NCBI GenBank assembly: GCA_903885795.1
Contig: CAISJV010000020.1
Coordinates: 1-64,000, forward strand
Source of the DNA: an uncultured delta proteobacterium
Lineage (GTDB): Bacteria > Desulfobacterota > Syntrophia > Syntrophales > UBA8958
Direction: 5' to 3'
Length of the DNA stretch: 64,000 nucleotides
Under the pieces are notes generated by a model, which was not told where the DNA came from, did not search any database, and saw only the letters and a list, made by a program, of their open reading frames with translations. Below are positions 2,629 through 63,417 of this stretch, piece by piece (the first letter of the stretch is position 1; each line of letters begins with the position of its first letter). Position numbers and translations under genes: made by a program.

Positions 2629-3236
2629 TTGCCAGAATCAGCGGCATGCTTGTATACAAGTCCGTCCAGGCAATTACCCTGGACGTCCAAGGCATCGGTT
2701 ACCGTGTCTTTGTTCCCTTAACGACATTTTACGAGTTGCCGGAAGCAGGTCAGGCCATTACCCTGTATATCCATACCCACGTAAAGGAAGACGCCATCAA
2801 CCTGTTTGGCTTTCATACCCTTGAGGAAAGAAACATGTTCCAGGTGATGATCTCCGTATCCGGAATAGGTCCCCGTCTGGCCATGAATATTCTTTCCGGG
2901 ATAAACGTCGAGGATCTGGTGGATGCGATTACGGGCAGTAATCTGCGCCGCCTCCTGAACATCCCGGGAGTGGGCAGAAAAATGGCCGAACGGTTGGTTC
3001 TGGAACTAAAGGATAAAGTGCTGAAGTTGGACAGAGGACAGACTGCCCCGCGCGACCGTGCCGTTCCCCGTTCCCCGGAAGAGGCCGTCAAGGAAGACGC
3101 TCTTTCGGCGCTCATCAATCTCGGATACAAAAATGCTACCGCTCGCGACGTCATCGAAAAGATCATGAAAGATACGACAGAGATTCCTGCCCTGGATCTG
3201 CTTCTGAAAAGTGCACTACAGCAATTGTCCGGTTGA
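2625..3236 (+). CDS. ruvA: Holliday junction DNA-binding protein RuvA
   Basis: RuvA binds the Holliday junction as a tetramer and loads the RuvB motor. The 203-residue protein begins with the family start MIARISGML, which fixes the ATG at 2625 and a 4-nt overlap (ATGA) with ruvC. An N-terminal OB-fold is followed by helix-hairpin-helix segments (VSGIGPRLAMNIL and IPGVGRKMAERLV, about residues 70-125) and a C-terminal RuvB-contact domain (SALINLGYKN). ruvB starts 16 bp downstream. Confidence 0.96.
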   Translation: MIARISGMLVYKSVQAITLDVQGIGYRVFVPLTTFYELPEAGQAITLYIHTHVKEDAINLFGFHTLEERNMFQVMISVSGIGPRLAMNILSGINVEDLVDAITGSNLRRLLNIPGVGRKMAERLVLELKDKVLKLDRGQTAPRDRAVPRSPEEAVKEDALSALINLGYKNATARDVIEKIMKDTTEIPALDLLLKSALQQLSG

Positions 3237-3252
3237 ATAGGATAAAAAAACC

Positions 3253-4284
3253 GTGAAACCCACAAAAAAGAATCTTGTTGTCGATACGGCTGCTGGCGAG
3301 GAGGAAGAATCTTATGAGGTTTCCTTACGTCCAAAGGCACTGTCGGAGTATATCGGACAGGAAAAGATAAAAAACAATCTGTCCATTTTCATCGAGGCCG
3401 CCAAGACGAGGGGGGAAGCCCTGGACCATGCCCTGCTCTATGGGCCTCCCGGCCTGGGCAAGACTACCCTTGCCTATATCATGGGTAAGGAGCTAGGGGT
3501 CGATGTCAAGGTAACCTCAGGGCCGGTTATCGAGAGACCCGGTGATCTGGCGGCTATCCTGACCAACCTCCATGACCACGACATCCTTTTCATCGATGAA
3601 ATCCACCGCCTCTCCCATGTCGTCGAGGAGATCCTTTATCCCGCCATGGAAGATTACCACATTGACATTCTTATTGGCCAGGGCCCTTCGGCTCGCTCCA
3701 TGAAGCTTGGCATTCCCCGTTTTACGCTGATTGGTGCTACGACCAGAGCTGGGCTCCTTACCTCACCTCTGCGCGACCGGTTCGGGATGAGTTTCCGGTT
3801 TGAATTCTATAATCCAGAAGAACTGGCCATTATTATTAAACGATCGGCCCGGATCCTTTCCGTTCCTATCGATGAGGAAGGAGCGGCGGAAATGGCCCGT
3901 CGTTCACGGGGCACCCCGAGGATCGCCAACCGTCTGCTGCGCAGGGTCCGGGATTATGCCCAGGTGAGGGCGGATGGTTTGATTGACAGAGACGTCGCTC
4001 TGGCGGCGCTCGAACTGTTCGAAGTTGATCACAAGGGTTTTGATCAGATGGACAGGACGATTCTTTTGACACTGATCGACAAATTTCAGGGAGGACCGGC
4101 GGGAATAGACAATCTTTCCGCCGCTATTGGTGAAGAACGGAACACAATCGAGGATGTCTATGAACCTTATCTGATTCAGGAAGGCTATCTCCAACGGACA
4201 TCCCGCGGCCGCATCGCCACTAGGATTGCTTATGAACACTTCGGCCGGCCGTGGTCAGCGGGAAACCAGAAAGAGCTGTTTTAA
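3253..4284 (+). CDS. ruvB: Holliday junction branch migration ATPase RuvB
   Basis: A 343-residue AAA+ motor of branch migration. Walker A GPPGLGKT lies at about 64-71, Walker B DEIH at 115-118, sensor 1 GATTRAG at 161-167, followed by the arginine-finger region RDRFG and a C-terminal winged helix ([12 protein letters not shown]). The start is a GTG at 3253, the only sensible choice 16 bp after ruvA. The cluster order yebC-ruvC-ruvA-ruvB is standard for the group, so an operon is very likely. Confidence 0.97.
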
Positions 4285-4379
4285 ATTAGCTCATTCGCAA
4301 AAAGTCAAAAATCCTGTCACTCCTGCGAAGAGTGAACAATCAATCCTCCTTGGGTAACATTTATTCATAAGGCAACTGG

Positions 4380-4910
4380 ATGCGAATTCTACTCCATATC
4401 TGCTGTGCCCCCTGTACTATTTATCCCCTGCGGATTTTAAGGGAAGAAGGTTTCTCCCTCACGGGATTATTCTTTAATCCCAATATCCATCCATACCAGG
4501 AATATCTACGCCGTCAGGAGGCCCTCGAAAGGTTTTCCCAGGAAGAGCATCTGGAAGTCCGGTGGAGTCCCGATTATCCCCTGGAGGCTTTTTTGCGGGG
4601 CGTTGTCTTCAAGGAGCAGGAACGGTGTGACTGGTGTTATGAGATGCGCCTGAGACGAACCGCAGAGATTGCCAGGCAGGACAACTGCGATGGCTTTTCC
4701 ACGACTCTTCTTTACAGCAGATTTCAGAAACATGACCGCATTCGCAGCACCGGGGAAATGTTGTCCGAGGAATATGGCATCAAATTCATTTATCGGGACT
4801 TCCGTCAAGGCTGGGACGAAGGGGTGCGCATATCAAGGGAACGGAAGATCTACCGGCAGCCATATTGTGGCTGCATCTATAGTGAGAAGGAACGGTATAA
4901 AGCACCTTAA
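4380..4910 (+). CDS. queH: Epoxyqueuosine reductase QueH
   Basis: QueH (formerly DUF208) carries out the last step of queuosine synthesis in tRNA, reducing epoxyqueuosine; it is a non-homologous replacement of QueG. The 176-residue protein has the adjacent cysteines C8-C9 (HICCAPC), the CDWC pair C83/C86 and C163/C165 near the end (PYCGC), matching the metal/Fe-S cysteine set of the family. It sits 95 bp after ruvB in the same direction. No queuosine synthesis gene and no preQ1 riboswitch is visible nearby. Confidence 0.9.
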   Translation: MRILLHICCAPCTIYPLRILREEGFSLTGLFFNPNIHPYQEYLRRQEALERFSQEEHLEVRWSPDYPLEAFLRGVVFKEQERCDWCYEMRLRRTAEIARQDNCDGFSTTLLYSRFQKHDRIRSTGEMLSEEYGIKFIYRDFRQGWDEGVRISRERKIYRQPYCGCIYSEKERYKAP

Positions 4911-5078
4911 CCTCTACCTGTGGCATTATTGACACACTTCCTTATCCCCAGGATTTTCCGTGCTTCACCGCCTGCGGGGAAACAGCTAATATTTAAAGGA
5001 TTAAAATTATCTCAGGGGGATAGGCATGGCGGTATAGAATTTGCTGACTACCTGAACAATAATTTTGGATAAATATTC

Positions 5079-6011
5079 ATGTATTTGCAACGAACAATAA
5101 AGAGTGAAATTACCTGCCGAAGTATCGGTCTCCACACAGGACGGAAGGTCAATATGACCATTAGTCCCGCTGATGTTGATCAAGGTATAACTTTCATTCG
5201 CAATGATCTTGACGGGAAACCACGGATCAAGGCTGAACTCGGGAGCGTCTGCGATACGACCCTGGCGACGACGATCGGCGTCAATGGCGCCACCGTATCG
5301 ACGGTGGAACACCTCTTGTCAGCCTTCAGCGGGATGGGGATTGATAATGCTATCGTGGAATTGGACGCTCACGAAGTTCCGATCATGGATGGTAGTGCAC
5401 AGCCTTTCGTCAACATGCTCAAGGAGGTTGGCACCCAACCTCAGGGAAAATGTAAAAAGTTGCTCGTCATCAATAGCCCCGTTTCCGTTGCCGACGAAAA
5501 CGGATCCGCCGCTTTTCTGCCATCCAGGGAATTCAAGATGACCTACACCATTGACTTCAAACATCCGATCATTGGCCGTCAGACCTGTCATTTCCACTTT
5601 TCCGATGCGGCGTATGAACAGGAGATTTGTGCCGCTCGCACCTTTGGTTTTCTTAAGGACGTGGAGTATCTTCAGGCGATAGGTCTTGCGTTGGGTGGTT
5701 CTCTGAAGAATGCCCTCGTCCTGGATGATCACCGGATCATCAACAAGGGAGGGACGAGGTTTCCGGATGAATTTGTCAAACATAAGGTGCTGGATGCCAT
5801 CGGGGATTTGTCTCTTCTGGGGATGCCCATCATCGGACATTTTGTGGCTTTCAAGTCGGGTCACCGTTTGAATAACAATCTCTTGAAAGAACTTTTAATG
5901 CGCCAGGATTGCTGGGAGATCGTCAATAGCTATCCCATGGAGTCTTCTGCAAAGATGTTCAAAACATTGAAAATACCTTCTTTTGCCGTCCTTGATGCCC
6001 TGTCCGCCTAA
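5079..6011 (+). CDS. lpxC: UDP-3-O-acyl-N-acetylglucosamine deacetylase LpxC
   Basis: LpxC is the zinc deacetylase that commits UDP-GlcNAc to lipid A, so the organism makes a lipopolysaccharide outer membrane. The 310-residue protein has the expected zinc ligands H78 (STVEHLLSAF), H235 and D239 (KHKVLDAIGD) and the catalytic H262 (SGHRLNN). It stands alone here rather than beside cell-division genes as in enterobacteria. The start ATG has only a weak ribosome-binding site. A 125-bp repeat follows the gene. Confidence 0.96.
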   Translation: MYLQRTIKSEITCRSIGLHTGRKVNMTISPADVDQGITFIRNDLDGKPRIKAELGSVCDTTLATTIGVNGATVSTVEHLLSAFSGMGIDNAIVELDAHEVPIMDGSAQPFVNMLKEVGTQPQGKCKKLLVINSPVSVADENGSAAFLPSREFKMTYTIDFKHPIIGRQTCHFHFSDAAYEQEICAARTFGFLKDVEYLQAIGLALGGSLKNALVLDDHRIINKGGTRFPDEFVKHKVLDAIGDLSLLGMPIIGHFVAFKSGHRLNNNLLKELLMRQDCWEIVNSYPMESSAKMFKTLKIPSFAVLDALSA

Positions 6012-6037
6012 CCGCCTTCGGCTGTTCAGAGCAGATA

Positions 6038-6162
6038 ATTCCATTTCTAAATCAAAGCGCTATCTTCGTTGGCTTCGTCATCGGCTCCTTGACGTATAAA
6101 CAATACGCCTGCGTCGCCTCTTCCTTGCCGCCTTGATTTCATCTTTGATTTAGAAGCGGAAT
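6038..6162 (+). repeat. Dispersed inverted-end element, copy A
   Basis: A 125-bp element bounded by imperfect 20-bp inverted repeats, 6038-6057 (ATTCCATTTCTAAATCAAAG) and 6143-6162 (its complement with two mismatches). The core is shared with copies B (39698-39822, opposite strand) and C (54176-54291, same strand). Copies A and B have exactly the same length and differ at scattered bases. A small central hairpin (CGTAT/ATACG) is visible. It lies in the gap between lpxC and the DUF4390 gene. It codes for nothing evident. It looks like a non-autonomous mobile or REP-type element; no transposase is seen in the window. Confidence 0.85.
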
Positions 6163-6239
6163 AAGACTTGATTTTTCTTCGTTAGTTCCCTAGACTCCCA
6201 CCGTTGCTATCATCTTTTCAAAGGTTGGTATCCGTAGAA

Positions 6240-6797
6240 ATGATCCACAAAACAAAATTTTTGGCGGTCATCATTGTCGTCCTTATATGGTTCTCTCCGG
6301 CTTATGCCCGGGAGGCGGAGATCCGGGATGTCCTGGTGACTAGTCAGGGAGACGCGATCACCGTATATGCCAGGGTGACGAACTGTTTTACCAAAGGTAT
6401 GGAGTCGGCCATCATGGCCGGAGTACCGACAACTTTTACTTTTCTTCTAGATTTGAACCGGGAAAGGAACTTCTGGTTTGATAAAAGAGTTGTCGGATTG
6501 GTGATCAGACAAACGATTAAATATGACAGTGTGAAGAAGATTTTCTTTGTATCCACTACAGACGGCAAGGGAGCGACAGCGTTCCAGGATATCGAGAGCG
6601 CCAAGCGGGCAATGGCTGAGATAACCGGGATCCTCATTATACCCCGCAACGTCGATAATCGGCAAACACCCTTCTATGTCATGATCAAAGCCAAACTCGA
6701 TAAGGTCAGACTTCCCCTCTACATGGAATATGTCTTTTTCTTTGTTTCCCTATGGGATTTCGAGACTGACTGGTATCGTCAGGAGATCGCCTTTTGA
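6240..6797 (+). CDS. DUF4390 exported protein
   Basis: A 185-residue protein with an N-terminal signal peptide (MIHKTKFLAVIIVVLIW, cleaved near PAYA) and a mature domain resembling DUF4390, a family of unknown function found next to NtrY-type kinases. The ATG at 6240 puts the hydrophobic segment at the N-terminus; a start at 6204 would add 12 residues. The stop overlaps the kinase gene by 4 nt, so it is co-translated with the sensor kinase. It may act as a periplasmic accessory of that kinase; this is an inference from coupling only. Confidence 0.8.
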   Translation: MIHKTKFLAVIIVVLIWFSPAYAREAEIRDVLVTSQGDAITVYARVTNCFTKGMESAIMAGVPTTFTFLLDLNRERNFWFDKRVVGLVIRQTIKYDSVKKIFFVSTTDGKGATAFQDIESAKRAMAEITGILIIPRNVDNRQTPFYVMIKAKLDKVRLPLYMEYVFFFVSLWDFETDWYRQEIAF

Positions 6798-9037
6798 GAA
6801 GAGAAGGTTCGTCCATTTTTCTGGATGTCAAGGAACGCCGCCGTAGAAAAAGGGAGAGAATCCTGATTGTCGTAACGGTGTTCGTGATTGTCCTCCTGAC
6901 TTTCCTGGAGACCCATCTTACCAGGCAAGAAACAATTCTTCCTGTTTCCAGCAATGTCCTTATCTTCGGCCTTATCAATATCAATATCATCCTTATTATT
7001 CTGCTTATTTTTCTTATTATAAGAAATGTTGTCAAACTTGTGTATGAACGGCGACACGGAATCATCGGATCCCGGATCCGGACAAAACTTGTTGCCGCCT
7101 TTGTCAGTTTGTCTCTCATTCCTACGATTGTTCTGTTTCTCGTTTCTATTAACTTTTTGTCCTACAGTATCGAAAACTGGTTCAATCTCAGGATAGGAGA
7201 TGCCCTGAACAGCACCCTTGAAGTTGCACAGACTTCCTATCAGTACACATCGGACTATGCAAAATTTTATGCCCGGCAGATCAGCGGCGATATTGCCGAA
7301 AACCGCCTTTACGAGAAAGAGCGTGCCAAATATCTGAAAGCTTTGGTCGAACAGCGGCAGAAGATCTATAACCTGGGACTCCTGGAAGTGTACTTCGACA
7401 GCCAGCGCGAAAAGATCACCATCAGGGATCCGAATAACCCCAATGTGGTTCCCGTTACCCTCTCCCCAAAAACTATCGAAGAGGTCTTCTCAGGGAAAGA
7501 GGTTTCCACTGTTCAATCATCAGGCAGCGGCGACCTGGTAAGCGGCATTGCACCGATCTATGCGCGTCTCAGCACGGGAGAAGTAATCGGTATGGTCGTG
7601 GTCAGCTATTATATTTCCCGGGCCTTCGTTGATAAGCTGGCCATAATTTCCAAGACATCAGAAGAGTACAAACAACTAAAACTCCTGAAAAATCCGATTA
7701 AGTTCAGCTATATTGTGACCTTGTCCATCGTCACGCTTCTCATCATCTTTTCCGCCACCTGGTTCGGCCTTTTTCTGGCCAAACAGATCACCGTTCCAAT
7801 CCAGGACCTCGCCGAGGCTACCGGTAAGATTGCCCAGGGTGATCTTGATCACCGGATCGATATTACCGCTGACGATGAAATCGGCACATTGGTAAATTCT
7901 TTCAATTCCATGACGAAAGACCTCAAGAAAAGTCAGCAGAATGTGGAACAGGCCAATACTGATCTTGAACAGCGTCGCAAATATATGGAGACGGTCCTCA
8001 GGAATGTTTCTGCCGGGGTAATCTCTGTGGACAAGAATGACGTGATCACGATCATCAACCGGGCCGCAGAAAGAATGCTGGAAATCAAGACCGAAAAGGT
8101 CCTGTACCGACCCTATCAGGAAGTCCTGATGCCCGAACATATGGTCCTGGTTGAGGAATTGCTTGAGGAACTGGAAAAGAGTGAGCATGGGTTTGTCGAG
8201 AGACAGCTCGAGCTCAATGTCAAGGGACGCCTTCTCACGGTACTAATCACGACAACAATCATTAACGATGATGAAGGACACGATATGGGAATGGTACTCG
8301 TTTTCGAGGATCTCACCCAGATGCAGAAAGCGGAGCGGGCAGCGGCATGGCGAGAAGTGGCGCGGCGCATGGCCCATGAAATCAAAAATCCTCTGACGCC
8401 CATCCAGTTGTCCGCACAGCGGTTACAGCGAAAATACGGCGACCGTCTCAGTGAAGACGGCGAGATCTTTCATGAATGCACGAAGACTATCATTGGCCAG
8501 GTCGAGGTACTGAAGAATCTTGTCAACGCATTCTCACGTTATGCCCGCATGCCCGTGACCAATCCATTTATGAATGATTTGAATGAATCAATTGTCGACG
8601 CCGTTGTTCTTTTCCAGGATGCCCACAAGGATATAATCTTCGATTTCAAGCGGGGAGAGGACATTCCTCAACTTAATATCGATCCGGAACAAATCAAACG
8701 GGTTCTGGTTAATCTACTCGACAATGCCGTGGCCGCCTTGGCAACGGGAGAAGGACAGATCGAAATAAAGACGTCTTATAATCCCCAGCAGGGTCGGGCG
8801 GTTGTGGAAGTGACCGATAATGGCTGCGGAGTGCCGTCAAACTACAAAGGCAAAATATTTGAGCCCTACTTTTCAACAAAAAGAGCAGGAACAGGTCTCG
8901 GCTTAGCAATCGTCAGCTCAATCATCAATGATCATCACGGTACGATCAGTGTCACGGACAACCAGCCACGGGGCACAATCGTGAGATTTGAATTGCCAAC
9001 CCCGGAAGGAGAAACAGAGAAGGGAGCCCATGCGTAA
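6794..9037 (+). CDS. NtrY-type membrane sensor histidine kinase
   Basis: A 747-residue membrane sensor kinase. Membrane segments are at about 23-39, 54-80, 99-122 and 305-328; the long segment between the third and fourth is probably the periplasmic sensor. Then come HAMP (about 330-380), PAS (about 395-500), the dimerisation domain with phospho-acceptor H528 (RRMAHEIKNPLTP), and the ATPase boxes (NLLDNAVAAL, DNGCGVPS, GTGLGLAIV). The start is TTG at 6794, overlapping the upstream stop by 4 nt. It overlaps the regulator gene by 8 nt. The arrangement resembles NtrY of the NtrYX system; the signal sensed is unknown. Confidence 0.9.
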   Translation: MRREGSSIFLDVKERRRRKRERILIVVTVFVIVLLTFLETHLTRQETILPVSSNVLIFGLININIILIILLIFLIIRNVVKLVYERRHGIIGSRIRTKLVAAFVSLSLIPTIVLFLVSINFLSYSIENWFNLRIGDALNSTLEVAQTSYQYTSDYAKFYARQISGDIAENRLYEKERAKYLKALVEQRQKIYNLGLLEVYFDSQREKITIRDPNNPNVVPVTLSPKTIEEVFSGKEVSTVQSSGSGDLVSGIAPIYARLSTGEVIGMVVVSYYISRAFVDKLAIISKTSEEYKQLKLLKNPIKFSYIVTLSIVTLLIIFSATWFGLFLAKQITVPIQDLAEATGKIAQGDLDHRIDITADDEIGTLVNSFNSMTKDLKKSQQNVEQANTDLEQRRKYMETVLRNVSAGVISVDKNDVITIINRAAERMLEIKTEKVLYRPYQEVLMPEHMVLVEELLEELEKSEHGFVERQLELNVKGRLLTVLITTTIINDDEGHDMGMVLVFEDLTQMQKAERAAAWREVARRMAHEIKNPLTPIQLSAQRLQRKYGDRLSEDGEIFHECTKTIIGQVEVLKNLVNAFSRYARMPVTNPFMNDLNESIVDAVVLFQDAHKDIIFDFKRGEDIPQLNIDPEQIKRVLVNLLDNAVAALATGEGQIEIKTSYNPQQGRAVVEVTDNGCGVPSNYKGKIFEPYFSTKRAGTGLGLAIVSSIINDHHGTISVTDNQPRGTIVRFELPTPEGETEKGAHA

Positions 9038-22594: not shown

Positions 22595-22643
22595 AAGGTC
22601 TCCCTTTACTCTCCTTTGCCAAAAGGGGGTAAGGGGAGACCTT
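22595..22643. repeat. Long REP-like palindrome at the end of the EcsC-like gene
   Basis: Outer arms 22595-22609 and 22629-22643 pair over 15 bases with one mismatch, and an inner stem (CCTTTGCC / GGCAAAGG type) continues it. The palindrome contains the stop codon (22606-22608) and encodes the last residues (LPLPPFGKGE) of the upstream protein. There is no T-run. It resembles the G/C-rich REP palindromes common in this group. Confidence 0.65.
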
Positions 22644-23238
22644 CATATAAACATTCGTTAATATCTTCAAAATCGAGCGCCTCTGCAAACAGCGCCATGG
22701 CTTCAGCGCCGATTTTTCTGGTCATTTTCTTCGAAAACAGGCCGAAGATGGGGGCAGCGATGATGATCAGCCATCTGCCCGCTATACGTTTGGTTATGCC
22801 GGCGGCGATCTGGAGGCCGATCCGTTGGGCAATTCTCTCGATGACCGGGGCGCTCAGTGCCTTGATGATTAACCGCACTCCGACCCGGCGGACAAGCTGA
22901 TTGCCGATGGTGAGACCCAGGGCGTTGGCGAAGATGAGCAGGACGATGGACTGGTTGATAGTTTCCATGTTCTTGTAATATTTGGCAATTTTATAGACGA
23001 GATTTATCTGGACCTTGGTCACGGCGCCGATTTCAGGTAGAATGGTCGCCAGGCCGAAAGGGGCGGGAACGGCGCTCAGGGTGGTGCTGATCCAGAAAGC
23101 TTTTTTCCCGGCCTCCTTGATCATTTCTTCGGGAGTTCCCGTGACGACGACCTCCTCCGGTTTGGGGGCAAACTTCACCAACAGGTCGAAAAACCAGTGG
23201 CCGCTTTTTACTTCTTCAAGTATTTGTCCTGATTTCAC
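22606..23238 (-). CDS. EcsC/DUF697-like membrane-associated protein
   Basis: A 210-residue protein with hydrophobic segments at about 50-72 (TTLSAVPAPFGLATILPEIG), 95-115 (SIVLLIFANALGLTIGNQL) and 155-170 (RWLIIIAAPIFGLF). The pattern of a P/G-rich segment followed by a basic, amphipathic VQINLVYKIAKYY resembles EcsC and DUF697 proteins, which often accompany dynamin-like GTPases. The start is GTG at 23238 with ribosome-binding site TAGGAGG, 14 bp after the hemerythrin gene. The extreme C-terminus is encoded by a palindromic repeat and is probably not functional sequence. Confidence 0.65.
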   Translation of the reverse strand: MKSGQILEEVKSGHWFFDLLVKFAPKPEEVVVTGTPEEMIKEAGKKAFWISTTLSAVPAPFGLATILPEIGAVTKVQINLVYKIAKYYKNMETINQSIVLLIFANALGLTIGNQLVRRVGVRLIIKALSAPVIERIAQRIGLQIAAGITKRIAGRWLIIIAAPIFGLFSKKMTRKIGAEAMALFAEALDFEDINECLYEGLPLPPFGKGE

Positions 23239-23252
23239 AGGGAATTTTCCTC

Positions 23253-23816
23253 CTACAGCGCCCGCCCGGCTTTGAATGCCTTTTCCCCGGTGAAAGATTC
23301 GACCAGCCGTTCATATTTTTCATGGATCATTTTCCTGTCAAAGTCCCAGAATTCCTGGAGCATCCGGTCCAACTCTTCCACACTGAAATACCGCTGGCAT
23401 TCATGGAAGAAGGTTTTGTCTTCCTTGGCAATGTGGAGGGGATAGAAAGTAGCCAGTTCCTTAAGCAAGGCGACGACTTCCATGACGGCCCCCTGATCTC
23501 CCTGGACGTACCGGTCTTTTGCGGCAACGAGCTTCCCCACGGTCTTGCGAGAGTAAATATGTTCCTGGAGGAGTTCGTCCATGATCCGGGCATGTTCGGG
23601 AGTCAGTTTCTTCTTTACCAGTTCCCGGAAGAGGATGTCCTCTTCCTTGCCGTGATGGGTACAGTCGGCGTAAATACGGATGAAATCGACGGCGGTGTCA
23701 ATGAAGACGGGATTCACCTTCCGGGCTTTTTCCATCTCCTCAGCCTCTTTGGTCACCACCTGCAGCATCTTTTCGATCAGGCGATGTTCCCACATCAATG
23801 GTCCAATCGGTTTCAT
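23253..23816 (-). CDS. Hemerythrin-like HHE-domain protein
   Basis: A 187-residue four-helix-bundle HHE protein. Likely di-iron ligands are visible in MWEHRLIEKM (H10), DCTHHGKEEDILF (about 52-60), LLQEHIYSRK (about 85) and YPLHIAKEDKTFF (about 130-137). Such proteins bind oxygen, nitric oxide or sense iron and redox state. It lies between the dynamin-like gene (82 bp upstream) and the EcsC-like gene (14 bp downstream), with a strong ribosome-binding site (AGGAGGAG), so it belongs to the same transcript. Confidence 0.9.
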   Translation of the reverse strand: MKPIGPLMWEHRLIEKMLQVVTKEAEEMEKARKVNPVFIDTAVDFIRIYADCTHHGKEEDILFRELVKKKLTPEHARIMDELLQEHIYSRKTVGKLVAAKDRYVQGDQGAVMEVVALLKELATFYPLHIAKEDKTFFHECQRYFSVEELDRMLQEFWDFDRKMIHEKYERLVESFTGEKAFKAGRAL

Positions 23817-23898: not shown

Positions 23899-25575
23899 TT
23901 AACCGCTCGTCAGACGGCGGCCAGCCGTTTCCAGATCAGCCGTCAGCCGCCGGATATCTTCTGTACGCCCCGGACTCTGGGAGAGAAGGGCGTCGATAGT
24001 GGTCATTTCATCATGGATATAATTGGCCGCCTGTTTCCGCATCTCCTCGATGGCCCTGTTGATCCGTTCTTCCCACTGGGCGGCAAGACGGGAGGTGTTG
24101 ACATAGACCTGATTGGCAAGCTGACTTACAAAATGCCGTTCGAAATGGCCGCGAAAAATGGCCATGGGGATAAGAAACCACAACAGATCAAAATGAAAAA
24201 TGAAAACCTGACCGGTGCTGATGTCCGGGCGGGCGGGGGGCGTTACTTCAAGCTTCCATTCCGCCGGGGCCATTTTGACGCCCAGGACCCTTTCGATATT
24301 GGCGCCCAGGAGGGCGCGGAATGACTCCAGATAGCGGTCCAGACCGGCATGGGCCTTCATCAGGGTGCCGAAGAAGTGTTTGTGTTCCTTTGCGGAAATC
24401 TCATCGAGCTCAACGATCATATTCTCCCGCAGCCATTCCTCATAGCGGCGGGTAAGCTTCCACAGGTTCCCCCGCCATTGGGGCATTTCATGCTGTAAGG
24501 CAGCCACGAGCTTATCGTGAAGCGGCCGTTTGAAGCGGTCGAGATACTTTTCAATATTGGTGCGGGTGTGAATTGACTGATTGCGGGTTATGACGATCAA
24601 ATCTTCATGGATCTGCGTGTAGTTTCCCTTTTCTCCGAGGATCTGTTCTTTCAGCTCCTCCCGGTCCGTATCGGCCTGCCGGGAGGTCTTCAGGGCGATT
24701 TCCAAATAGCTCTGACAGCTCTTTGCCAGAGATAAGGCCTTATACTGAAGAATCCGTCCGAATTCCGCATCCCTGTTCGCCGACAGTTTATAGAGGAGTT
24801 CCATCTCCATCCGATGCTTGAATTTCTCCACGTTCTCCCGGTTCGAATAGAGGAAGATGGGGAATCCCTGTTTCAACTCCCGCTTCAGGGTGTCCTCGAA
24901 GAATTGGATGACCTCCCGCTGCTGGTCGGGTTGTAGGAGGTCCGCCTTGGTCAAAAGCAGGACGATGCGCGGCGTGTATTGGAGAAGATCCCGGATCAAA
25001 GCCAGGTCGTGCTCGGAAAGGGGGCGATCGGCGCTGATGGCCAGAATTGCCGCTCCCACCTCGGGCAGCCAGTTTTCCGAGGTCTCCATGTGATATTTAA
25101 AGACGCTGCCCAGGCCGGGGGTATCGACGAGACGGAGACCCGCGTAGTCTTCCAGGGAGGGGAGATCGATATCGACGACGGCGACGTCCTTCTGATTGCC
25201 GGGATTCTTGGCCTCCGAGGTGTATTCGACAAGATCGTCCAGGGAAATCTCCGCCTTTGACCCGTCGAAATGGGATACCACGGCTCGCTCTTGTTCTCCG
25301 TACTGGATGCGGGTAATAACGGTGGTGACGGGAATTACCCCCACGGGCAGGAGGCGTCTGCCGATCAGACTGTTAAGAAAGGAACTCTTCCCCGCCTTGA
25401 ACTGCCCCAGGATGGCAACGTCGATGAGGGGATTCTTGTGGACCAGGGAACGGCAGACATCGGTGGAACGTTTGAGGGAGAGGATTTGCAGAGTATCACA
25501 GACTTGTTGTACGATATCTAGGATCTGCCCGGAAGCCGTCTGGATCACATGAACATTCTGGGTCATCGCTTCCAT
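23899..25575 (-). CDS. Bacterial dynamin-like GTPase
   Basis: A 558-residue dynamin-family protein. G1 P-loop GQFKAGKS is at 57-64, the threonine-rich G2 VIPVTTVITRI follows at about 80, G3 VDTPGLGS at about 155 and G4 LLTKADLL at about 207. A helical stalk follows, and a hydrophobic paddle-like segment (FHFDLLWFLIPMAIF) lies at about 475-490. Such proteins bend or fuse membranes, some protecting cells from membrane stress. The ATG at 25575 follows ribosome-binding site GGAGGAG, which is inside a terminator-like hairpin of the riboswitch leader. It is the first gene of the fluoride-riboswitch operon. Confidence 0.9.
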   Translation of the reverse strand: MEAMTQNVHVIQTASGQILDIVQQVCDTLQILSLKRSTDVCRSLVHKNPLIDVAILGQFKAGKSSFLNSLIGRRLLPVGVIPVTTVITRIQYGEQERAVVSHFDGSKAEISLDDLVEYTSEAKNPGNQKDVAVVDIDLPSLEDYAGLRLVDTPGLGSVFKYHMETSENWLPEVGAAILAISADRPLSEHDLALIRDLLQYTPRIVLLLTKADLLQPDQQREVIQFFEDTLKRELKQGFPIFLYSNRENVEKFKHRMEMELLYKLSANRDAEFGRILQYKALSLAKSCQSYLEIALKTSRQADTDREELKEQILGEKGNYTQIHEDLIVITRNQSIHTRTNIEKYLDRFKRPLHDKLVAALQHEMPQWRGNLWKLTRRYEEWLRENMIVELDEISAKEHKHFFGTLMKAHAGLDRYLESFRALLGANIERVLGVKMAPAEWKLEVTPPARPDISTGQVFIFHFDLLWFLIPMAIFRGHFERHFVSQLANQVYVNTSRLAAQWEERINRAIEEMRKQAANYIHDEMTTIDALLSQSPGRTEDIRRLTADLETAGRRLTSG

Positions 25576-25609
25576 AAAAAAACTCCTCCAGGTTTGCTTC
25601 CTGCAGGAG
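25576..25609 (-). promoter_or_regulatory. Expression platform: terminator hairpin overlapping the ribosome-binding site
   Basis: On the minus strand CTCCTGCAGG (25609-25600), loop, CCTGGAGGAG (25592-25583) forms a 10-bp stem with one mismatch, followed by seven T and then the ATG. The 3' arm holds the ribosome-binding site of the dynamin-like gene. It can act as an intrinsic terminator or hide the translation start, as expected for a riboswitch output. A further stem (ATCAG/CTGAT, 25638-25611) lies between it and the aptamer. Confidence 0.7.
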
Positions 25610-25659
25610 CATCAGATTCCGCTTGCCGCTTTTCTGATTCCCGCCAGGATGGTCTTTCT

Positions 25660-25711
25660 TGACAGGAGTTATCAGCCGAGAGGGTGGTTGTCAGGTGAAC
25701 TCCATCACCTT
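25660..25711 (-). ncRNA. Fluoride riboswitch (crcB motif)
   Basis: The minus strand reads AGGTGATGGAGTTCACCT, then GACAACCACCCTCTCGG, then CTGATAACTCCTGTC. This matches the crcB/fluoride aptamer: P1 stem AGGTGA/TCACCT around the GATGG element, a pseudoknot between the P1 loop GGAGTT and the downstream AACTCC, the conserved AACC, and CTGAT before the pseudoknot strand. The P2 stem is short. It lies 85 nt upstream of the dynamin-like gene with a terminator hairpin in between. Fluoride would be expected to raise expression of the operon. Confidence 0.8.
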
Positions 25712-25851
25712 TCTGAGACATCTTCTCTATGATTATCGAATACTACAGACGCATGTTGCCTGTCAAGGCAAATGCCGAACAACTCTCTTGACACTGTAAT
25801 CAAGACTCGGTCCAGCAGTTTATGGAAGCGCAGGACGGCAGGGGTCAAAAG

Positions 25852-46660: not shown

Positions 46661-46735
46661 AGGCACGTAGCTCAGGGGGAGAGCGCCATCCTGACGCGGT
46701 GGATGTCCAGGGTTCAAATCCCTGCGTGCCTACCA
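46661..46735 (+). tRNA. tRNA-Val(GAC)
   Basis: A 75-nt tRNA including the encoded CCA. Acceptor AGGCACG pairs with CGTGCCT; D-arm GCTC/GAGC; anticodon stem CCATC/GGTGG with loop CTGACGC, so anticodon GAC (valine, codon GUC); T-arm CAGGG-TTCAAAT-CCCTG. It precedes thrS. Confidence 0.96.
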
Positions 46736-63064: not shown

Positions 63065-63417
63065 GGGGGCGTCTCGGTTTCGACGGGGATAGTTGAAGCT
63101 GTAGCAGCGTACCGAGGTTCCTACAGGCCTCGTTAAACAGGTAGGAAAACCATAATCGCAGACAACTACGATTACGCCTTAGCCGCGTAAGACGGCTAAC
63201 GTCCTCCTGATCATGCCTGCCGGGTCAGACGGGGCGCAATACAGGTAGGATAGCTGAACTCCCAGGCCTGGGGGGAGGGAGGCGAAATCTCTCAGGATAG
63301 TCACGGTTCATCCTGCCTTTGGGAGGGGCTGTCGGCGAAAGCAAATCAAAGGCTATGTACGTAGAACCTGCAGTGGAATATTTCCGGACGGGGGTTCGAT
63401 TCCCCCCGCCTCCACCA
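63065..63417 (+). ncRNA. ssrA: Transfer-messenger RNA
   Basis: A 353-nt one-piece tmRNA. The tRNA-like ends pair (GGGGGCG with CGCCTCC) and CCA is encoded at 63415-63417; the T-arm GGGTTCGATTCCC is intact. The resume codon GCA is at 63158 and the tag reads ADNYDYALAA before TAA (63188-63190). Rescued proteins thus receive a tag ending in ALAA for proteolysis. smpB is directly upstream. Its 3' end is the likely attachment site of the integrated element to the right. Confidence 0.97.
63390..63417 (+). other. Probable attachment site (att) at the tmRNA 3' end
   Basis: The tmRNA 3' end, including the T-arm and CCA, lies 13 bp from the end of a tyrosine recombinase gene. tmRNA 3' ends are common integration sites. 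The matching direct repeat would lie to the right of the window, so the site cannot be confirmed here. Confidence 0.4.

Follow-up and report, generated by a model that had tools for sequence, protein, structure and literature searches.

A fluoride riboswitch aptamer in the leader of a dynamin-like GTPase gene in a Syntrophales genome and its recurrence across the Desulfobacterota

The window analyzed here comprises positions 1 to 64,000 of contig CAISJV010000020.1, part of the 4.02-Mb draft genome of an uncultured member of the order Syntrophales (phylum Desulfobacterota). On its minus strand it encodes a dynamin-like GTPase of 558 amino acids (23899 to 25575; PF00350, Dynamin_N, 85.7 bits, E = 5e-24), as the original prediction had read this gene. 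An 82-bp gap separates it from a gene for a hemerythrin-domain protein (23253 to 23816, minus strand; PF01814, E = 1.2e-10), which is followed after 14 bp by a gene for a 210-amino-acid protein (22606 to 23238, minus strand), and both are possibly cotranscribed with the dynamin gene. The 210-amino-acid protein had no match in Pfam or NCBIfam, and the name EcsC was unsupported by any library searched. The original prediction spoke of an operon, and beyond the dynamin gene this did not hold as a conserved unit: the hemerythrin and 210-amino-acid protein genes adjoin the dynamin gene in one of seven related loci only (L106), where the aptamer described below has been lost. Elsewhere, the window carries the end of a 23S rRNA gene with a 5S rRNA gene (1 to 1294), a tRNA gene (46661 to 46732), and a tmRNA gene (63065 to 63417), and it looks like ordinary chromosome. 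A plasmid collection held no close relative (27% identity at the best place and no record with 80% coverage).

Upstream of the dynamin gene, the minus strand matches the Rfam fluoride riboswitch model (RF01734) from 25718 to 25656 with 45.3 bits against a gathering score of 34 (E = 2.4e-9 for 64 kb and 4,227 families). The model is covered over its whole length (1 to 64), the match is the only one in the entire draft genome, and its 3' end lies 80 nt from the dynamin start. A crcB (fluoride) aptamer in this leader had been proposed from its parts, with a covariance-model search as the check; that search gave the significant match above, and each of the named parts is present. The stem AGGTGA/TCACCT (25710 to 25705 and 25698 to 25693) is the first Rfam stem, the pseudoknot strands GGAGTT (25698 to 25703) and AACTCC (25665 to 25670) pair with each other, and AACC and CTGAT are both found. 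All six pseudoknot pairs are formed in the window, and each is retained in 92 or 93 of 93 dynamin-linked aptamers, among which the pseudoknot covaries through compensatory changes from GC to AT at pair 2, AT to GC at pair 3, and TA to CG at pair 6. The linked aptamers number 94 in all, including a weak decoy match (22.8 bits) in L082 that was left out of the pairing counts and is still counted as linked. The L082 leader, from genome G083, has AACCGCC and GCTGATAACTCC about 190 nt apart rather than the normal distance of about 12 nt, and its aptamer seems, from this arrangement, to be interrupted by an insert.

One base, on which the original prediction did not remark, sets the window copy apart. 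At the base of stem P3, position 25685 (minus strand) is G in 93 of the 94 linked aptamers and A in the window alone, opposite a C at 25675; this pair is nonstandard in the Rfam alignment, so that the window P3 keeps two standard pairs only. A standard closing pair is a consensus feature of the Rfam model rather than a requirement for a match, and the family model still accepts the window aptamer, at a score below the 49.8 and 53.2 bits of its congeners. The unique A may mean that the window copy is weakened, or it may be an error of the draft assembly.

Bacterial dynamins are widespread, and we know of few that have a known trigger. The window protein carries the motifs GQFKAGKSS, DTPG, and one of the TKxD type; across 21 sequences, GKS and DTPG are invariant, and T209, K210, and D212 are invariant or nearly so. 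Its best sequence matches are BDLP, IniA, and a DLP pair (PDB 2j68, 6j72, and 5owv), which are also the top Foldseek matches of a structural model of moderate confidence (mean pLDDT of 69.7 and pTM of 0.64, built on 8 sequences). The model resembles BDLP, IniA, and mitofusins at 11 to 16% identity in the fold alignments; the comparisons with BDLP (Z = 13.5 over 431 residues, 13.2 Å) and mitofusin 1 (Z = 15.3 over 303 residues, 6.3 Å) both lie near the range usual for helical bundles. The most hydrophobic stretch, LLWFLIPMAIF (residues 464 to 474), falls between predicted helices at 371 to 431 and 471 to 531. BDLP and IniA contact membranes at about the equivalent place, and in the model this stretch would be positioned as a membrane tip would be. 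Two named families were tried and rejected: the NCBIfam equivalog for DynA scored 42.9 against a cutoff of 1,600 bits, and LeoA in PADLOC, a library without a cutoff, gave 37 bits with its best stretch at residues 45 to 73 only. Judged by its sequence, the protein fits no tested named family below the superfamily level.

A survey for the same pair in other genomes, which the original prediction had suggested, found it in at least 104 of those searched. The samples comprised 155 genomes of the order and 395 of the phylum (including 8 dynamin genomes of the order), and the searches were genome-wide within this phylum. In the order, 73 of 155 genomes have an aptamer and 57 have the dynamin; the aptamer is present in all 57 dynamin genomes compared to 16 of the 98 others. 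Directly behind an aptamer stand 54 of the 66 matches to the dynamin profile, and the same 54 account for close to half of the 119 aptamers listed, 6 of which fall below the Rfam cutoff (one of these, in G083, is among the 54 linked). Of the 80 dynamin genomes in the phylum sample, 75 have an aptamer, compared to 83 of the 315 others, and at least 48 of the 150 aptamer matches listed precede a dynamin gene. Outside the order, at least 42 of 80 profile matches are linked among the matches listed, and closer scanning added 13 (11 from loci L147 to L166 and two from L184 and L185, with positions compared by hand). Of the remaining 25, which were not shown to be linked, 13 were scanned: 12 have no aptamer in the stretch and L183 has only distant aptamers. 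Taken over the order and the phylum sample, there are at least 109 linked matches in 104 genomes, representing 108 genes because G430 was counted twice. The profile (A1) derives from linked genes and so favors linked matches. Three genomes (G232, G362, and G531) have aptamers 226 to 301 nt from the dynamin match on the opposite strand, and G423 and G478 carry at least eleven and seven fluoride aptamers, respectively, among the matches listed.

Within a set of 60 genomes (the window's own and 59 relatives), 50 aptamers were listed and 48 were placed on fetched regions, leaving out the window's own aptamer and a weak match in G011. Directly behind 23 of these 48 lies the dynamin gene, a remnant of it, or a part cut by a contig end; eight loci duplicate genomes of the set (among them L031, L032, and L033, which are G001, G006, and G003), and each such genome was counted once, under its G label. 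The general Pfam dynamin model, which does not derive from linked genes, found 44 genes in the 60 genomes, of which 22 are linked, all belonging to this subfamily by hand count. Fourteen dynamins of other subfamilies in the order had no aptamer in the fetched stretches; 13 of them have at least 530 nt of upstream DNA, and the fourteenth (L177) has only 64 nt, so that this control stands at 0 of 13. On a tree that takes in 105 linked proteins and a subset of 28 of the unlinked ones (133 together), prepared after dropping the partial proteins L056 and L105, the label "has riboswitch" changes 6 times compared to 25.7 times when shuffled, a contrast inflated by near-copies on a quick tree that lacks bootstrap values and drew a long-branch warning. 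The window's branch is linked in 69 of 70 rows and the second branch in 36 of 46, with ten unlinked rows nested inside the latter; such a pattern would fit an ancient linkage that was lost here and there.

Neither CrcB nor a CLC protein was found in the window's genome; in the order, CrcB occurs in 5 and CLC in 51 of 155 genomes. A single aptamer of the 119 precedes CrcB, and none of the 57 CLC matches in the order lies behind an aptamer. Neither exporter was found in 39 of the 57 dynamin genomes of the order, some of which are incomplete drafts. An anticorrelation of the dynamin with CLC was considered and dropped (17 of 57 compared to 34 of 98; Fisher P = 0.60).

The fetched stretches of the 94 linked loci contain, on either strand, genes for enolase (29 loci), an HIT protein (19), an Na+/H+ antiporter (18), an AAA-like NTPase (13, under the Pfam cutoffs), a prenyltransferase-like protein (12), a Usp protein (10), and a histidine phosphatase (8), each named from the Pfam match of one member. 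In 41 of the 94 loci, the dynamin gene is followed within 200 bp by the start of one of these seven genes, so that there the dynamin need not be the key gene; the other 53 have none within that distance, some of their stretches ending at contig ends. We know of neither the prenyltransferase-like protein (an alpha-alpha toroid-like fold in L068 and L057) nor the HIT protein (L076) as a fluoride gene, and both recur beside fluoride-linked dynamins. In L048 (genome G001), four fluoride aptamers lie within 6 kb (3029 to 8950), compared to one in the window's whole genome, and precede the dynamin, a MutS-like pair (named by eye), enolase, and the AAA-like protein, forming a fluoride gene cluster. 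Antiporters are, after exporters, the next commonest targets of fluoride riboswitches in the available part of the review PMC11139923, and the available portion of PMC5533749 places enolase, Usp, and phosphoglycerate mutase in a proven fluoride-riboswitch operon of Enterobacter cloacae.

How the window leader might switch is the weakest part of the case. Upstream of the aptamer, a promoter-like element was read by eye at 25766 to 25740 (TTGACA at 25766 to 25761 and TAGTAT at 25745 to 25740, 15 nt apart); TTGAC and TAGTAT are kept in the alignment with relatives G001 and G003, and TAGTAT also in G007. A consensus promoter scan of the leader demanding a spacer of 16 to 18 nt reported none. Downstream, a minimum-energy fold begun at the pseudoknot strand gives an apo hairpin of 8 pairs (25667 to 25660 with 25646 to 25639) that shares bases with the pseudoknot, and inspection and folding give a terminal hairpin with 9 of 10 pairs (25609 to 25600 with 25592 to 25583), whose 3' arm holds the ribosome-binding site GGAGG. 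Seven T follow (25582 to 25576) and lead into the ATG at 25575. A hairpin with seven T overlapping the ribosome-binding site, as originally predicted, thus stands on inspection and fold, although a consensus terminator scan of the window leader found 0 terminators and left this hairpin unreported.

By a loose pattern, 52 of the 94 linked leaders have the same layout, with a ribosome-binding site plus U-run right before the start codon. A platform that would preclude folding of the aptamer is plain in many relatives. Where the leader is short, the 5' arm of the terminator is the pseudoknot strand itself, the 3' arm is the ribosome-binding site, and the U-run continues into the start codon; in distant relatives the two arms change jointly, e.g., GACTTCTGCC with GGCAGAAGTTTTTT in L134. 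Over 93 leaders, the longest pairing run between the pseudoknot strand and this platform averages 8.1 compared to 4.6 after shuffling, and for 48 leaders fewer than 10 of 200 shuffles matched the run. The window belongs to the long-leader set, in which the apo hairpin intervenes between aptamer and terminator, and its run of 7 was matched by 30 of 200 shuffles. A simple "bound" fold opened the terminal hairpin in 3 of 15 leaders folded (L048, L063, and L070) and left that of the window formed. By inspection, the strand at 25644 to 25639 is complementary over six bases to the 5' arm of the window terminator (25608 to 25603), a pairing that the energy fold does not show. Dual terminator and ribosome-binding-site platforms are already known, as the accessible part of PMC2258182 describes; the leaders here differ from those in that the U-run passes directly into the ATG and that long leaders add the apo hairpin.

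We propose that, when fluoride is absent, the pseudoknot's 3' strand would pair downstream and that the hairpin would act both as a transcription terminator and as a cover of the ribosome-binding site, keeping the gene off. With fluoride present, the pseudoknot would retain its 3' strand and the gene would be read. In the long leader of the window, the freed strand at 25644 to 25639 could pair with 25608 to 25603, permitting fluoride-dependent read-through during RNA synthesis. The leader RNA would be expected to bind fluoride, and fluoride is very probably the ON signal for the dynamin gene.

Close relatives of the window species have lost parts of the arrangement. In G006, a Syntrophus-like genome whose dynamin is 95% identical, the terminal hairpin and ribosome-binding site are kept and unrelated DNA replaces the aptamer, with the break inside the leader (L106 upstream of 5046; the same contig as L032, 3700 to 4000). 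In G007 (L059, 7628 to 8066), the aptamer and the first dynamin codons are intact and are followed only by residues 494 to 558, which reads as an internal deletion leaving the C-terminal 65 residues. Neither aptamer nor dynamin was found in congeners G002, G004, and G005. A fluoride aptamer of G006 precedes an antiporter that had no match in the window's genome.

Taking together the computed aptamer, gene family, recurrent linkage, covarying pseudoknot, and company of known fluoride genes, we consider it probable that the leader is a fluoride riboswitch inducing a dedicated fluoride-response dynamin, which likely acts on the inner membrane. The resemblance of the leader to a fluoride aptamer could in principle be accidental, and the broken P3 pair, with nothing else beside it, would fit such an accident; the chance of this is very small, as the E value of 2.4e-9 and the linkage in more than 100 genomes, in the same position before related genes, rule it out together with the covarying pseudoknot. 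A weightier objection, though still an unlikely one, is that in the window species the aptamer has been impaired or inactivated through the P3 change and that the dynamin is heading for fixed expression or loss. The unique A at 25685, the score below those of both congeners, and the fates of G006, without an aptamer, and G007, without a full dynamin, all accord with such decay. Yet neither the pseudoknot nor the first stem is disrupted, the score exceeds the cutoff, the dynamin reading frame is uninterrupted and retains its GTPase motifs, and a single-base error in a draft is possible.

Two further readings accept the riboswitch and question the dynamin. Metal fluorides mimic phosphate in GTPases, and the dynamin could be a fluoride-sensitive GTPase that cells simply overmake when it is inhibited, as they are assumed to do with enolase and pyrophosphatase; the protein would then not itself be protective. 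Enolase is so regulated, and riboswitches frequently target pyrophosphatase (PMC11139923, in its available part). This account is improbable, since a housekeeping enzyme would be expected in genomes without the riboswitch as well, and in the order the subfamily is confined to genomes with an aptamer (57 of 57) and was not found in the other 98, a distribution that favors a dedicated role over mere replacement of an enzyme that fluoride inhibits. Least persuasive of the two is the suggestion that the dynamin is a passenger and that the riboswitch serves enolase, HIT, or antiporter genes behind it. The 41 loci with a named gene close behind would suit this idea, but the dynamin is constant where its neighbors vary, 53 of 94 loci lack any named gene within 200 bp, and the neighbors in the window itself are kept in one of seven relatives; we regard it as very doubtful.

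A dedicated fluoride-response protein, rather than a housekeeping GTPase, therefore remains our preferred reading of the dynamin, and its part in fluoride tolerance is probable to much the same degree. Hydrogen fluoride crosses membranes, and fluoride build-up lowers the proton motive force, according to the available text of PMC11139923. The original prediction took the pair to suggest that membrane remodeling forms part of the fluoride response. Our best guess is a membrane-guarding role, in which the dynamin would hold, seal, or reshape the inner membrane while HF brings acid and fluoride in. Repair of the membrane is perhaps the means by which it acts, a suggestion that we would place somewhat short of an even chance.

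Compared with fluoride riboswitches in general (RF01734), the system shares the aptamer structure, the pseudoknot, a platform predicted to re-pair the pseudoknot strand, and neighboring genes for enolase, an Na+/H+ antiporter, and Usp, and it is unlike them in that the commonest target found here is a dynamin-like GTPase rather than CrcB or CLC. To our knowledge, BDLP, IniA, and the DLP pair are not under fluoride control, and DynA of Bacillus subtilis, which unlike the window protein consists of two fused dynamin halves, is not under a riboswitch. The DLP pair (PDB 5owv) also differs from the single dynamin gene found behind the aptamer. DynA is likewise a dynamin, of a stress type thought to gather at damaged membranes, that clusters on addition of a pore-forming antibiotic (PMC8844932, in the portion available), a behavior in line with the membrane-guarding role guessed above. 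The fluoride-resistance operon of E. cloacae FRM shares a fluoride riboswitch before eno, uspA, phosphoglycerate mutase, and other genes, and it differs in having crcB and pyrophosphatase; the words dynamin and GTPase are missing from the accessible text of that paper (PMC5533749).

The original prediction knew of no dynamin-like GTPase among the targets of fluoride riboswitches, and the open-license literature searched agrees: no paper in it joins a fluoride riboswitch with a dynamin or large GTPase, supplementary gene tables lying outside that search. In the founding paper on the motif, the genes listed are mutS and those for K+ or Cl- transport and formate hydrogen lyase; the word dynamin is absent from the main text of that paper, as far as accessible (PMC2864571). 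Proteins behind fluoride riboswitches are named in PMC13273304, according to the part of its methods available, and the dynamin link may be recorded unremarked in downstream-gene tables such as these. The RNA class is known, and no paper that the searches reached has the dynamin as its target.

The wide recurrence of the pair in the phylum suggests that dynamins contribute to fluoride survival, a role so far unreported. An RNA sensor of known ligand before one group of dynamins across a phylum offers a ready inducer and makes the function of these proteins testable. It brings an unexpected kind of protein into the fluoride response of bacteria among which the textbook exporters were found in a minority of genomes, and would tie fluoride toxicity to the integrity of the membrane. 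We offer as a bolder conjecture, tentative and on balance doubtful, that in much of the phylum a dedicated dynamin subfamily, and not an exporter, is the main product of fluoride riboswitches and that defense is achieved chiefly at the membrane, by remodeling or sealing it to keep HF out or by shedding its loaded parts. If true, this would add a principle of defense to those now recognized, namely, export, pH control, and enzyme replacement.
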